Positions 1,154 through 33,680 of a stretch of 48,699 bases of DNA are shown one piece after another (positions within the stretch are counted from its first letter, which is position 1; each line of letters begins with the position of its first letter). The stretch lies in assembly GCA_007128425.1 (NCBI GenBank), contig SKXL01000105.1, positions 1 through 48,699 of the forward strand, read 5' to 3'. The DNA is from Balneolales bacterium (GTDB lineage Bacteria > Bacteroidota > Rhodothermia > Balneolales > Natronogracilivirgulaceae). The notes beneath the pieces were generated by a model. It did no database searches. It saw only the letters and a list, made by a program, of their open reading frames with translations, and was not told the origin of the DNA. Made by a program: the position numbers and the translations under genes.

Positions 1154-4100
1154 ATGAAGCAATTTTCCTACGGTATTCCTTTGATCACGCTACTATTGCT
1201 GGTTTTATCCCACCCCCTGACCGCGCTCGGACAGTTTTTCGAGGATTTTGAGAGTGGTTCCAAAGGTGGATATGCACCCGCGACCGTCGAACTGGCCTCC
1301 GGGCCCTGGATGTTAAATGATGCCCTGCTCGGGCGACAGGACGGAGACAAGCGAATCGGCACCCAATCGGTCCGTCTCAGAAATGGATATGTCGGCATGG
1401 AATTTGACATTTCTGGAGCCGGTGAAGTGCGTTTCTTTCACGCCAATGCCGGTTTTTCTGGTGATACCGGTGGGAAGATCCAACTGCAGTATTCCCAAAA
1501 CGGTGGCAGCAGCTGGTCTGATGCCGGGCCCGAGCTCACTTCCCCGGAGGATGACCTTGAACAGGCAAGCATACCGGTCAACCTGAACGGTGACATTCGG
1601 TTCCGAATTATCCGGACTGCCGGAAACCGGATCAGCATCGACAACTTCGAGGTAACGGTGTTCGAGGAGATTTCCGAGGATCCCCGTCTGCGCGCCGAAG
1701 TGGGTGGCACCCTGGTCGATAGCGACGGCACGGTCGCTTTTGGTTCCGTGATGACCGGCAGCGAGGAATCCAGAATCCTCACACTCACCAACACCGGTCA
1801 GGAGACGCTTGTCTTCTCCAGTGCGGCTGTTTCCGGCAGCGAGGCCTTCAGTCTGGAGGGGGAAACCGGCGGAGAACTTGCCTACGGCGAAAGTATCCAG
1901 ATGACCCTCACCTTTTCACCTGAGACGCTTGGTGATTACCAAAGTGTATTCACCCTTGAAACCAATGACCCTGACCGCGAAACCTTCACTCTGAACCTGA
2001 CCGGACGCGGACTTCCTTCCGATGAGCCTATTTCCATTGCCGAGGCGCGAGGCTTACCCCTTGGAACCGTGGTCACCGTGGCCGGCTGGGTGACGGTAAC
2101 CGATGAACTCTCCGGCCCGATCTATTTTCAGGACGATACGGCCGGACTCGCCTCCTACTATGGACCGCTTATGCGGGATGAGGAAGTCGGTTTTTCGCTT
2201 GGCGTGTCCCATGGCGACTCCATTGTCGTCACCGGTCCCCTCACCACTTTCAACGATCTGTTGCAGATCGCACCGGTGGAAGGCGTCATGAACACGGTAG
2301 AATTTGAAGTCTTTCCCGTAGCAAACCGCGAGATCACACCACGCGTAATCACCATTGCCGACCTCAATACAGGAGATTATGAAGGACAGCTGGTGCAGCT
2401 TGACAGTGTGTTGATCGAAGAAAGCGGTGCTTTCACCGGCCAGGAAAACTACAAAATAACCGACGGGGTGAATACGTCAGAAATCCGGATCTCAGAATTT
2501 ACAGATCTCCCCGGTGCGGTAATCCCCAACGTACCGGTAAACATCGTGGGGGCCGCCAGCCGGTTCCGCCAGTTTGTCCAGGTATTCCCGCGCTCCCGGG
2601 TCGATATCATCCAGATTGGCGACGCCCCGCTTTTCCTCTCTGCAGCACCCTTTGAAACAGCGGCGACCCATACGAGTATCACCTTCCAATGGGAAACCGA
2701 CCGGCCCGGCACCACCGAACTGTGCTACGGACTTACAGCCGCACTGGAAATGGGATGCGTCGAGGATCCCGGTCCCAAGGAGGAGCATACACTGATCCTT
2801 GAGGATCTGGAAGCAGCCACCATCTACAAGGTTCAGCTACGCTCAGCGGCAGGAACAGATACCAGCCATACAAACCCCTATTTCGTAACAACCTCCTCCC
2901 CGCCACAATCCACCCAGGAAATAAACGTATATTTCAACAAGAGTGTGGACCACACCCTTGCCGTCGGAGAACAGGCAACTCAAAACTTCAGCTTCCCGGA
3001 CCATTACATCCGACGCATTTTCGAAGCGCAACATTCCATCGACATCGCATTTTACAGCACCAGCGGCAGTGTCGGCACGCAGATCGCCAATTTCCTCGGC
3101 CAGGCGCACAACCGCGGGGTCGAAGTCCGGGTGATTCTGGATCATACCACCAGCACCGCCGCGGTGGAAACCGAGCTTCAGGCCAACGGTGTGCCCTTCA
3201 TCCTCAGCAACTACGGCAGCCAGAACAGCGGCAGGAGCGGTATCCATCACAACAAGTTTGCCGTCATCGATTATAAGGGCGGCGATCCCGACGACGTCTG
3301 GCTGGTCACCAGTTCATGGAATGCCACGGACCAGGGTTCCGAGCAGCAGTACCAGAACATGATCGAATTCCAGGATGTGGCTATTGCCGGCGCCTACACT
3401 CGTGAGTTTGACCAGATGTGGGGAAGTACCACCACCACGCCCAGTTCCGCCAACGCCCGTTTCGGCGAAAACAAGCAGGTGGTGAACCCGATGCTGTTCT
3501 GGATCGGCGACAGCCACGTGCGGCTACACTTCAGTCCGCAAGGCGGCACGGAGGATGCCATTGTCCAGGCGATCAACCGGGCCGAGCACAGCGTGAACGT
3601 AGGCACCATGCTGATCACCCGGTTTACCATCGCCAACGCACTGCGCGACAGACACGACGCCGGGCTTGCCGTCCGTGGTGTGATCGGGAATATCAGTGTC
3701 ACCGGCAGCCAGTTCGAAACCCTCTCATCCTGGGGCGACTTCATCCACTTCCCTGAGGGTCAGTTCGGCCTGCTGCACCACAAGTACGCTGTGATTGATG
3801 GCGAGCAGACTTCCTGGAACGGTACGGTGATCACCGGATCGCACAACTGGTCCGGCGCCGCCAACCAGGTCAACGACGAGAACACCATCATCATCACCGA
3901 TCCGCGCATCGCCAATCACTTTATCCAGGAGTTTGGCGCCCGTTACAAGCAGGTCGGGGGTGAAAACGAGATTATAGTCCGTTCCGAAACCGAACTCACC
4001 GCACTTCCTGAGCGCTTCACAGTGCACCAGAACTATCCGAATCCCTTCAATCCATCAACGGTAATCTCCTTTGAACTGCCATCCGATCAGAGCGTGAGCA

Positions 4101-4279
4101 TCAGGCTGTTCGATACCCTGGGACGCGAAGTGGCAACACTGGTTTCCGGCGAAACCCTGTCCGCGGGGCGCCATGAGGTGACCTTTGACGCATCCCCTCT
4201 TTCCAGCGGTATCTATATCTACCGGGTGGAGCTTGGCGACGGACAATCCATGACCCATAAAATGACACTTATCAAATAA
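1154..4279 (+). CDS. Secreted phospholipase-D-like (HKD) protein with T9SS sorting tail
   Basis: A 1041-residue multidomain exported protein. Residues 1-26 are a signal peptide. A beta-sandwich-like segment follows (to about 173), then a choice-of-anchor-D/HYDIN-like domain (about 175-287), an OB-fold-like segment (about 288-487, containing TVAGWVTV) and a fibronectin III-like domain (about 490-585). The PLD-like catalytic region (about 586-945) has both half-motifs: H699-x-K701-x4-D706 and H875-x-K877-x4-D882, the second followed by GSHNWSGA. The last 90 residues (YPNPFNPSTVISFELP onward) are a type A T9SS sorting domain. PLD-family enzymes cleave phosphodiesters in lipids or nucleic acids through a covalent phosphohistidine. 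The substrate cannot be read from sequence. It lies 28 bases before a second secreted phosphodiesterase-type gene, which favours a nuclease role by context only. Confidence 0.85.
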   Translation: MKQFSYGIPLITLLLLVLSHPLTALGQFFEDFESGSKGGYAPATVELASGPWMLNDALLGRQDGDKRIGTQSVRLRNGYVGMEFDISGAGEVRFFHANAGFSGDTGGKIQLQYSQNGGSSWSDAGPELTSPEDDLEQASIPVNLNGDIRFRIIRTAGNRISIDNFEVTVFEEISEDPRLRAEVGGTLVDSDGTVAFGSVMTGSEESRILTLTNTGQETLVFSSAAVSGSEAFSLEGETGGELAYGESIQMTLTFSPETLGDYQSVFTLETNDPDRETFTLNLTGRGLPSDEPISIAEARGLPLGTVVTVAGWVTVTDELSGPIYFQDDTAGLASYYGPLMRDEEVGFSLGVSHGDSIVVTGPLTTFNDLLQIAPVEGVMNTVEFEVFPVANREITPRVITIADLNTGDYEGQLVQLDSVLIEESGAFTGQENYKITDGVNTSEIRISEFTDLPGAVIPNVPVNIVGAASRFRQFVQVFPRSRVDIIQIGDAPLFLSAAPFETAATHTSITFQWETDRPGTTELCYGLTAALEMGCVEDPGPKEEHTLILEDLEAATIYKVQLRSAAGTDTSHTNPYFVTTSSPPQSTQEINVYFNKSVDHTLAVGEQATQNFSFPDHYIRRIFEAQHSIDIAFYSTSGSVGTQIANFLGQAHNRGVEVRVILDHTTSTAAVETELQANGVPFILSNYGSQNSGRSGIHHNKFAVIDYKGGDPDDVWLVTSSWNATDQGSEQQYQNMIEFQDVAIAGAYTREFDQMWGSTTTTPSSANARFGENKQVVNPMLFWIGDSHVRLHFSPQGGTEDAIVQAINRAEHSVNVGTMLITRFTIANALRDRHDAGLAVRGVIGNISVTGSQFETLSSWGDFIHFPEGQFGLLHHKYAVIDGEQTSWNGTVITGSHNWSGAANQVNDENTIIITDPRIANHFIQEFGARYKQVGGENEIIVRSETELTALPERFTVHQNYPNPFNPSTVISFELPSDQSVSIRLFDTLGREVATLVSGETLSAGRHEVTFDASPLSSGIYIYRVELGDGQSMTHKMTLIK

Positions 4280-4307
4280 TTACATAAAGCAATTACCCCT
4301 TTCATCG

Positions 4308-5552
4308 ATGAGTTTGCAAACACGAATCTCTATTGCCGGCATCCTGGTATTTCTCATATCAGGACCGGCCACAATGTTCGCCCAATACAGCGATGATTGG
4401 GCCCAAATCCCCCGCTCCAAAACGTTTGACGTGGTCACCTGGAACATTGAGTGGTTTGGCGATGAAGAAAGAGGTCCAGACGATGAAGAAAAACAGTACA
4501 CTCATGTTCGGTGGATCATCGAGGATCTTCAACCCGACTTGATGGCGGTCCAGGAGATTGCCAATCCGACACAATTTCAGCGCCTCATCAGCGACCTGGA
4601 TGACTACCGGGGATTTATCACCAATTATTCCCAGCCTCAGCAGGTCGGCTTTCTGTACAACACCAACACAGTGGATTCGCTTTTCAGCGGTCTTGTTGAT
4701 AGCGACAAAGGTCAGAATTCATTTTCCTGGGCCGGTCGATTTCCGCTGGAATTTGTGATTCAGGCACGGGTGGATGGGTCCAGCCGTATCATCTATGCGG
4801 TAGGGATCCATGCAAAGGCGTTCTCAGATCCCGAATCATACGACCGCAGGGTGGCCGCATCGCAGGATATCAAGACCTACTTCGACCAGTCCGTGACCCC
4901 GCACAGTGCCCTGATATTCCTGGGCGACTACAACGATGACGTCATACGGTCCACCCGTGGTCCCAATTTCGACTCCCCATACAAGAATTTCCTGGACGAT
5001 CCAAACTACACCATAGTCACTGAATCTCTCAGTTTGAAGGACGCCGAATCGTGGAAACGGGGTACCAACCCCGGCAGCATGATCGACCATATCACAGTCA
5101 ACCACCATCTGACCGACAAGTGGCTACTGGGCTCCGAGATGGTCTATGTGCCCGACTACATCAGTGACTTCAGCAGTACGACCTCCGATCACCGGCCCGT
5201 ACACGCCCGATTTGATCTTTCAGGGACTTTGAACGCAACTTCATCGGGTCAGGACGACGCCAATGGCCTCCAGGAGACACCCGTGCATACGGAACTGCTG
5301 GGAAACTATCCCAACCCGTTTAATCCGGTGACCGTTATTCCATTCAATCTTGGTGAACCGGCTAGCATTTCACTGACAATCTACAATGCCCTGGGCCAGC
5401 GTGTTGCACGCCCAGTTTCGGAAACGCAGTACCGTGCCGGATCGCATTCCGTGTTATTCGATGCCCAAAACCTGCCCAGCGGTTTCTACTTTTATAAGCT
5501 GGAAAAAGACAGCGGATGGTACCAGACCCGGAAGATGATCCTTGTCAGGTAA
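4308..5552 (+). CDS. Secreted endonuclease/exonuclease/phosphatase-family protein with T9SS tail
   Basis: A 414-residue exported enzyme of the EEP (DNase I-like) fold. A signal peptide ends near residue 26. Family motifs appear in the right order: WNIEWF near 45, MAVQEI near 80 (metal-binding Glu), FLGDYNDD near 204 and TSDHRPVH near 294 (catalytic Asp-His). From about residue 328 the protein carries GNYPNPFNPVTV followed by a beta-rich stretch ending in KMILVR, the T9SS type A sorting tail. EEP members cut DNA, RNA or other phosphodiesters with a divalent metal. It shares an apparent transcription unit with the PLD-like protein upstream. Both are predicted to be exported through the same outer-membrane route. 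The exact substrate is unknown. Confidence 0.85.
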   Translation: MSLQTRISIAGILVFLISGPATMFAQYSDDWAQIPRSKTFDVVTWNIEWFGDEERGPDDEEKQYTHVRWIIEDLQPDLMAVQEIANPTQFQRLISDLDDYRGFITNYSQPQQVGFLYNTNTVDSLFSGLVDSDKGQNSFSWAGRFPLEFVIQARVDGSSRIIYAVGIHAKAFSDPESYDRRVAASQDIKTYFDQSVTPHSALIFLGDYNDDVIRSTRGPNFDSPYKNFLDDPNYTIVTESLSLKDAESWKRGTNPGSMIDHITVNHHLTDKWLLGSEMVYVPDYISDFSSTTSDHRPVHARFDLSGTLNATSSGQDDANGLQETPVHTELLGNYPNPFNPVTVIPFNLGEPASISLTIYNALGQRVARPVSETQYRAGSHSVLFDAQNLPSGFYFYKLEKDSGWYQTRKMILVR

Positions 5553-30985: not shown

Positions 30986-32571
30986 CAGATGACCGTATCT
31001 CTGCAGGCTTCCTCTATCCGGCAGGGATAATCTGTCGTGTAGTGAAGGCCTCTGCTCTCCTTTCTGCTCATCGCGGAGCGGATAATGATATAGGCATTGG
31101 CAATAAGGTTCCGCAATTCACAAAGCTCGACACTGACCCTGGTTCTACGATAAAAATCTTCTGTCTCTTCATAGACCAAACCGGTGCGCCGAAAAGCACG
31201 CTGCAATCGCAGGTCACTTCGAACAATTCCTACGTAATTCCACATAACCTGTTGCAGTTCTTGCTTGTTGTGAGATATCAAAATTGATTCTTCCACATTG
31301 GTGGTGCCGCTGTCATCCCATTCCGGAACACCTGTCACCCATTGTGAATCCTTCATATAGTCTGCCGCTACCACTGCAGCTCGCTTAGAAAATACCATGG
31401 CCTCAAGCAGACTGTTTGAAGCAAGCCGGTTGGCACCATGCAGACCGGTGCAGGCCGATTCACCCGCACAGAACAGTCCGTTTATCGAGGTCCTGCCATC
31501 CTGGTCGGTAAGCACCCCGCCACACAAATAATGGGCAGCAGGTACAACCGGAATCCATTCACTTGCAATGTCGATGCCATACTTCCGGCAAGTCTCCATA
31601 ATATGTGGAAAGCTCTCCGTAAGTATATTTTTATCTATATGTGTCACATCAAGATATACCGTATTATCTCCGGATTTTTTCAGGTAGTCGTCAATGGATC
31701 TTGCCACGATATCCCTTGGTGCAAGCTCGGCTCGTTTATCGTAATCCTTCATGAAAGTCTTGCCGCTGCGATCGCGCAGAATGCCACCTTTGCCGCGCAC
31801 CGCTTCGGAGATCAAAAACGAATTGGCTTCCGGAACATTTAGTGTTGTGGGATGGAACTGCATGAATTCCATATTCGCCACCCTGGCTTTGGCTCGGAAT
31901 GCCATGGCAATGCCATCACCCGTAGCAATGGAAGGATTGGTAGAATGCAGGTAAACTTCCCCGACTCCTCCGGTAGCCAGCAGCGTTGCTTTGGCCAGTA
32001 TGACACCCACCTTTCTCGTTTGTGTGTTGAGGACGTAGGCTCCGTAGCATGAGATGTCATTATCATATCTGGTGACAATTCTGCCGAGATGATGCTGCGT
32101 TATGAGCTCAAGCGCAAAATGATGCTCGAAAATACTGATATTCGGATGGTCATCCAGTGCGGTAAGCAGAGTCTGTTCTATCTCCTTTCCGGTTCTGTCG
32201 GCGGCATGGACAATTCTGTTGTGTGAATGTCCTCCTTCGCGTCCCAGATCCAGAATGCCATCCCTGGTCGAAAACCGTGCACCCCAGTCCAGCAGCTCCT
32301 TCACAACATCAGGTCCTTCTCGCACTACCATTTCGACAATCCCGGGATGGCACAGACCGGCACCGGCTACAATCGTATCATTGACGTGATCTTCAAACCG
32401 GTCCCGGCGATCAAGGACACTCGCCAGTCCTCCCTGTGCATAATTAGTATTCGATTCAGTCGAGTCTTTTTTTGTGACAATCGCGACCGTTCCATACCGA
32501 GCAACCCTGAGAGCAAAAGAAAGTCCCGCTCCACCGCTGCCAAGAATCAGGAAATCATATTTTTCAGGCAT
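30985..32571 (-). CDS. nadB: L-aspartate oxidase
   Basis: A 528-residue FAD enzyme that oxidises aspartate to iminoaspartate, the first step of de novo NAD synthesis. The dinucleotide site is [54 protein letters not shown] and the fumarate-reductase/succinate-dehydrogenase-like core with [13 protein letters not shown] are typical of NadB. The C-terminal helical domain contains [14 protein letters not shown]. NadA and NadC are not in the window. It overlaps prfB by eight bases at its start and coaE by one at its end, so the three are probably translated from one message. Confidence 0.95.
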
Positions 32572-33680
32572 CAGACATTAAATAGGCTTTGATTAATTCA
32601 TCGATTTTACCGTCCATGACCGCTTCAACATTGGATGTTTCGTATCCTGTTCGATGATCCTTGACCATATTGTAGGGATGGAACACGTAGGAGCGTATCT
32701 GAGATCCCCACTCGTTCTTCATTTTGGTGCTTTCCAGTTTATTCTTCTGCTCTTCCTTGATGCGCTTTTCGAGGTCATAAACCCGTGACTTGAGCATAAT
32801 CATAGCCTTTTCCCTGTTCTGCAACTGAGACCGCTCCTGCTGACATTCAGCAACCACACGCTCCTCCCGGCCATCGGAAAGTTTGCCGGTCCAGATCAGG
32901 CGCACTCCGGTTTCGACCTTGTTCACGTTCTGTCCCCCCTTGCCACCCGCGTGAAAACGCTGGAGCTCAATATCATCCTGATTCAATTCAATCTCGATCT
33001 CGTCATCGACGAGCGGCGTGACGAATACCGAGCAGAACGAAGTATGGCGCCGGGCATTGCTGTCAAATGGTGAGATGCGAACCAACCGGTGTACCCCGTT
33101 TTCCGCTTTAAGGTAGCCATAGGCAAAATTCCCTTTCACTTCAATACTTGCACTTTTTATGCCGGCCACATCCCCGGGCTGATACTCCAGCACCGTGGCT
33201 TCCATATGGTTGTCTCCAGCCCATCTCACGTACATCCGGTAGATCATTTCGGCCCAATCCTGGCTTTCTGTACCCCCAGCTCCGGGGTTGATCGTCAGGA
33301 GCGCATCACGGCGGTCATCGGGTTCATCCAGCATGTTTTTGAATTCAAGGTCCTCAACTTCCTTTTTGATCTGATCGACCTCCCTGTTCAATTCCTCGGT
33401 AACATCATCTCCTTCTTCCATTATTTCACGAAAAAGAATGATGTTTTGCCTCATTTCGTCCAGTTTATCCCACTGACTGACCCAGGACTTCTCGTGATTG
33501 ATATCTTTCATGAATTTCTGGGCCTTTTCTGCATCATCCCAGAAATCAGGCTGTTGAGCCTGGTATTCGAGTTCGCCTATTCTTTCTTTGCGTTTGTCGT
33601 AGTCAAAGATACCTCCTCAGCGCATCAACGCGCTGCAGCAAGTCTTTTACCTGTTCGGTGGTGTGTTTAAGTTGCGTCAT
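32564..33680 (-). CDS. prfB: Peptide chain release factor 2, expressed by programmed +1 frameshift
   Basis: RF2 recognises UGA and UAA. The first frame starts at ATG 33678-33680 and reads 25 codons ([20 protein letters not shown] and so on to RRYL) to an in-frame TGA at 33605-33603. After the +1 shift on CTT-T the second frame continues [15 protein letters not shown] to the stop at 32564, giving about 371 residues. The RF2 codon-recognition tripeptide SPF appears in [16 protein letters not shown], and the peptidyl-hydrolysis motif GGQ in [19 protein letters not shown]. Taking only the second frame from its first ATG (33511) would lose the N-terminal domain. Upstream of nadB in the same unit. 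Confidence 0.95.
33602..33617 (-). promoter_or_regulatory. prfB: RF2 programmed frameshift site
   Basis: On the coding strand the sequence AGGAGGTATCTTTGAC combines an internal Shine-Dalgarno (33617-33612), the slippery CTT codon and the in-frame TGA followed by C. Only one base differs from the enterobacterial site (AGGAGG in place of AGGGGG). The stop is codon 26, the same position as in E. coli. Known mechanism: low RF2 slows termination and favours slippage, an autoregulatory loop. Confidence 0.97.

Follow-up and report, generated by a model that had tools for sequence, protein, structure and literature searches.

A tandem pair of T9SS-tagged PLD and EEP proteins, probable secreted nucleases, inherited within one Balneolales family

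Two adjacent forward-strand genes in a 48,699-nucleotide stretch of a Balneolales draft genome (the window, i.e., the whole stretch of DNA that was analyzed) probably encode a co-transcribed pair of nucleases exported by the T9SS. The upstream gene (1154..4279, +) encodes a T9SS-tagged PLD-superfamily protein of 1041 aa with two HKD motifs, and the downstream gene (4308..5552, +) a T9SS-tagged EEP-fold protein of 414 aa. Based on open reading frame, domain, tail, alignment and model evidence (an AlphaFold2 model for the EEP protein), these are a probable secreted nuclease and a probable secreted DNase-like enzyme, respectively. The open reading frames occupy exactly these positions, which agrees with the preliminary description of two genes 28 bases apart, and no terminator-like hairpin was found in the 28-bp gap (4280..4307, +). 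Conserved open frames, invariant motifs and inherited adjacency place the pair beyond chance. Its parts are most likely ordinary and its arrangement new. None of the literature searched described a T9SS-tagged PLD and EEP pair in Bacteroidota, and a plasmid search returned nothing beyond remote LTD/EEP proteins and matches to T9SS tails alone. As an arrangement of known enzyme types the pair is new to a modest degree; it is inherited in one family with losses. The source draft genome (G000) comprises 263 contigs and is 91% complete, the contig with the pair measuring 48.7 kb.

Both proteins carry export signals at their two ends. The signal peptide of the PLD protein (aa 1-27, ending in ...TALGQ; 1154..1234, +) was recognized from its sequence and modeled as a helix at residues 7-18 followed by disorder, and that of the EEP protein (aa 1-26, ending in ...ATMFAQ; 4308..4385, +) was likewise recognized from sequence. 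Type A T9SS sorting tails span aa 956-1041 of the PLD protein (4019..4276, +) and aa 333-414 of the EEP protein (5304..5549, +), with the motifs QNYPNPFNPS and GNYPNPFNPV in the window proteins. The tails scored 39.4 and 42.1 bits, respectively, against TIGR04183, both exceeding its curated cut-off of 23 bits, and the genome encodes the T9SS translocon protein SprA (TIGR04189, 1565 bits vs a cut-off of 200). The YPNPFNP-type tails first noticed from the sequence were thereby confirmed, and both proteins are predicted T9SS type A cargo. Two neighboring T9SS tails are by themselves unremarkable, however, because the genome holds at least 37 T9SS-tail search matches, nearly all of them to the tail.

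The PLD protein is modular. Its N-terminal scaffold comprises a jelly-roll-like all-beta module (JR, aa 27-170; 1232..1663, +), which was also modeled, a choice-of-anchor D/HYDIN-type Ig-like module matched by Pfam/NCBIfam (aa 187-286; 1712..2011, +) and a DUF5689-like module presumed to adopt an OB fold (aa 289-490; 2018..2623, +); the first and third of these are common to EEP proteins of relatives. The sequence of the DUF5689-like module gave no OB-fold match among solved structures (best E 0.3, to a catalase; the EEP protein 9sf9 followed at E 0.45). An fn3-like module (aa 503-573; 2660..2872, +), weak in the window copy and clearer in relatives, leads into the catalytic double PLD module (aa 593-935; 2930..3958, +), which was delimited by domain, profile and fold searches and matches PLDc_2 in two stretches (4.5e-39). 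Membership of the PLD superfamily follows from two intact HxK(x)4D...(G/S)SxN motifs in 20/20 aligned sequences (43-88% identity to the window protein). Motif 1 (H699-N-K701...D706, S720-S721-W-N723; 3248..3322, +) and motif 2 (H875-H-K877...D882, G895-S896-H-N898; 3776..3847, +) are invariant throughout this alignment. At 41 bits the protein misses the NucT equivalog cut-off of 297; it would work like NucT while standing outside that family by score.

The EEP protein has a simpler layout of signal peptide, EEP domain and tail, with the LTD and OB-like module of the ExeM-family layout absent from the chain. Alignment, model and profile place the catalytic domain at aa 37-305 (4416..5222, +), with N46, E83, R144, H168, D207, N209, D260, D294 and H295 among its catalytic residues. 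PF03372 matched the window protein at 5.7e-5 and 23.4 bits, 1.1 bits below the 24.5-bit cut-off, which was passed by relatives (34.7 and 46.4 bits). Eleven catalytic residues are invariant across 20 aligned sequences (31-84% identity to the window protein), and the AlphaFold2 model (pLDDT 84) has the EEP fold with a fold probability of 1.00. Two unrelated phosphodiesterase folds, as originally proposed, are therefore present side by side. In a search of the whole source genome, an incomplete draft, nothing matched PF03372 at E<=1e-5, and hence no ExoIII-type EEP of the ordinary kind was seen.

Following these features, both proteins would cross the inner membrane via their Sec signal peptides and the outer membrane via the T9SS. 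The EEP domain would then cleave nucleic acid in the metal-dependent manner of DNase I, and the PLD module, with two HKD motifs in one chain, would do so independently of metal through a covalent histidine. The JR/choice-of-anchor D/OB-like scaffold, borne within the pair by the PLD protein alone, presumably holds the substrate or a surface. The two genes are probably transcribed together, and their enzymes may cooperate in using extracellular DNA or RNA as food or in removing it.

The pairing was traced through 20 genomes of the window's Balneolales family. Both genes are adjacent and intact in six of them (G000, G001, G006, G007, G013 and G017), separated by 14-132 bp, and a seventh (G019) has the pair adjacent with the EEP gene cut by a contig end. 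Contig ends also interrupt the locus in G004 and G009, where the EEP 3' end stands at the contig start, ahead of the same TPR and GltP genes, in G008, where PLD lies at the contig end, and in G016. PLD occupies the same site with EEP absent there in G011, G012 and G014, and an OB-EEP gene is present but unlinked to PLD in G015 and G018. Neither gene had a clear match in G002, G003, G005 and G010, genomes that are 51-74% complete. At the EEP site of G011 lies a gene for a short protein with an LTD and a CotH-like C-terminal stretch (L100:5469-6035), perhaps a remnant. Tandem PLD gene duplications were seen in three family genomes (L043:9903-14924, L098:3-3834 and L109:6265-10800). In the other Balneolales families the PLD and EEP genes lie apart; a phylum-wide conserved pairing was therefore rejected, and of the adjacency looked for across Balneolota what stands is its inheritance in one family.

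The same data bear on whether the two are simply separately useful exported enzymes that are neighbors by chance, with general synteny holding them together. Most family members retain the divergent upstream gene as well as the TPR-GltP-AguB-BamA run. Since conservation extends to these flanks, general synteny accounts for part of the adjacency within the family; the loss of EEP at the site in three genomes and the separation of the genes in other families also fit this explanation. Conversely, G017 retains the pair despite a differing downstream flank, the paired EEPs form one clade sharing the loss of a scaffold, and EEP-PLD neighbors recur elsewhere with different EEP families. Beyond the window's family, 6 of 128 PLD genes have an EEP gene no more than 1.5 kb away, where 0.86 would be expected from the EEP density in 61 genomes (Poisson 3e-4, ignoring the relatedness of genomes; P = 0.056 if just three of these cases are independent). 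One of the six (L225) is of PF03372 type and lies 22 bp upstream, and five (L292, L301, L310, L323 and L330) are of PF19580 type. This recurrence is supportive and falls short of decisive, given few independent events and the relatedness ignored. Taken together, a pair without any functional link appears unlikely.

A scaffold shared between the two enzyme types adds to the case for a pair of exported nucleases. Across the order, PLD proteins have the layout JR-choice-of-anchor D-OB-like-fn3-PLD-PLD-tail, and many EEP proteins read JR-choice-of-anchor D-OB-like-EEP-tail or OB-like-EEP-tail, i.e., both enzyme types usually bear the same N-terminal scaffold of jelly-roll, choice-of-anchor D and OB-like DUF5689 modules, which, together with its loss in the paired EEP clade, is the new observation here. 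In a tree of the full scaffold, the PLD side splits cleanly from the EEP side (support 97/97). The two enzyme types have therefore long shared it and each combination is old, which led to rejection of the idea that catalytic domains had recently been exchanged on a single scaffold. In a tree of 66 EEP domains, the six paired EEPs form one clade (100/99), which is joined, at moderate support, by OB-EEP proteins from the same family and from f4/f5 (92/89, 91/96). From this nesting it follows that the paired clade lost its scaffold, and within the pair the scaffold is kept by the PLD protein only. A stronger reading, that PLD and EEP are the two parts of one secreted nuclease, with the PLD scaffold holding substrate for both active sites, is quite unlikely on present evidence; if true, it would explain why the paired EEP clade, unlike unpaired relatives of the same family, lost the OB-like module. 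The scaffold common to PLD and EEP proteins also offers a testable idea on how such enzymes hold their substrate.

With respect to substrate, the preliminary description had offered DNA or RNA degradation with action on lipids as the alternative. The EEP model superposed on DNase I with TM-scores by target of 0.77-0.80 and rmsd of 3.1-3.6, the upper value being the highest among the EEP fold matches listed, and TDP2 and nocturnin were also matched. The best PDB match to the EEP domain profile was DNase gamma (1.9e-7), with the H, D/N, D and SDH motifs and the R-x-P motif aligned. No sphingomyelinase appeared in the top 50 of the fold search or at E<=0.05 in the profile search. Within the EEP superfamily, the closest kin by fold and profile among the matches listed are DNase I-like enzymes. 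A phosphatase-like EEP acting on small phosphodiesters or nucleotides downstream of a PLD nuclease is very unlikely: nocturnin, an EEP-fold phosphatase solved with NADPH, does rank 2-4 in the fold search, but DNase I fits better (up to 0.80 vs 0.61-0.67) and the profile matches DNase gamma.

For the PLD module, profile searches returned Zucchini (1e-19), Nuc (3.5e-19), NucT (6.8e-13) and PLD3 (6.9e-7). The fold search ranked a phospholipase D (7e0m, 8e-18) first and chains of PLD3 and PLD4 at ranks 3-9, and with phospholipase D first and PLD3 next, fold alone is undecisive on the PLD substrate. Domain company leans to nucleic acid, as a scaffold-free PLD relative in the order (L113:6224-8152) carries C-terminal SNase (7e-9) and HHH_3 (2e-21) domains; three further relatives of similar length (L112, L114 and L116) had no scaffold module found. 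In Crocinitomicaceae, L323:4449-9175 encodes closely packed EEP (PF19580), PLD, 5'-nucleotidase C domain and metallophosphatase proteins, beside a divergent gene for a TonB plug domain protein (L323:1791-4331). 5'-nucleotidase-like neighbors were seen at only 3 of about 200 loci, with no clear enrichment. Separately, in the order of the window, L189:7651-11913 encodes a T9SS-tagged protein of 1420 aa (choice-of-anchor I, LTD and 5'-nucleotidase C domain) and lies divergent from an OB-EEP gene.

These matches also allow a lipid-acting set, in which a genuine phospholipase D (the PLD protein) and a sphingomyelinase or lipid phosphatase (the EEP protein) attack membranes of dead or competing cells. 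Such a set would account for 7e0m as top PLD fold match, for its recurrence in the profile search (1.3e-9) and for Streptomyces PLDs and phosphatidylserine synthase among the structures listed. Against this, the PDB entries most strongly related to the PLD by profile comprise nucleases and the piRNA factor Zucchini/MitoPLD, SNase/HHH domains are fused to a PLD relative, the EEP domain matches DNase gamma with the sphingomyelinases missing as above, and the shared OB-like scaffold resembles the layout of ExeM, an LTD-OB-EEP nuclease whose activity was abolished when its OB-like part was deleted (PMC6085458). A lipid-acting set is thus very unlikely. The substrate evidence favors nucleic acid: DNA or RNA degradation is suggested by DNase I/DNase gamma kinship, PLD nuclease profiles and the SNase/HHH fusion, and the proposed action on lipids is less favored, the PLD module's best fold match being what speaks for it.

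Both putative nucleases have known counterparts. The window EEP, predicted to be exported, resembles ExeM of Shewanella oneidensis (PMC6085458) as an extracellular EEP-fold enzyme; in most of its relatives in the order an OB-like module precedes the EEP domain, which is also the ExeM arrangement. The window EEP differs from ExeM in having neither an LTD nor an OB module, in bearing a T9SS tag instead of GlyGly-CTERM, and in being paired with a PLD protein that carries the OB-like module. It shares its fold and catalytic residue set with DNase I and DNase gamma, but is a bacterial, T9SS-tagged, putative nuclease with 15-17% identity in the structural alignments. HKD chemistry links the window PLD to Nuc, NucT, Zucchini and PLD3 (profile matches 1e-19 to 7e-7), from which its large N-terminal scaffold and T9SS tail set it apart; two HKD motifs per chain are found as in PLD3, unlike in Nuc, NucT and Zucchini. 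The extracellular nucleases EndA1 and EndA2 of Flavobacterium johnsoniae are induced by phosphate starvation (PMC8115612). They resemble the pair as exported nuclease genes lying close together (Fjoh_4721, Fjoh_4723) in a member of Bacteroidota, with fn3 and LTD domains, yet belong to a different nuclease family (PF04231). Bacteroidota are reported to be important in breaking down extracellular DNA in marine sediments (PMC8289736). A T9SS-exported pair in which one enzyme depends on metal and the other presumably does not would extend this picture by a further nuclease layout.

The surroundings of the pair did not support the phosphate and nucleoside use suggested at the outset. Its neighbors are a TPR protein, a GltP-type symporter, and polyamine and housekeeping genes, and no phosphate or nucleoside uptake genes were found around it within the window; two 5'-nucleotidase-type genes lie on other contigs of the genome. 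The rest of the window encodes spermidine synthase, arginine decarboxylase, N-carbamoylputrescine amidase, PNPase, IF-2, NusA, PrfB and two ABC transporters, among others. The divergent upstream gene (3-641, -) is cut by the contig end; its full, family-conserved form of 701 aa (L039:3055-5160) matched no Pfam family. The prfB frame (32564-33511, -) starts at model position 47/353, which fits the usual programmed frameshift of prfB, if present.
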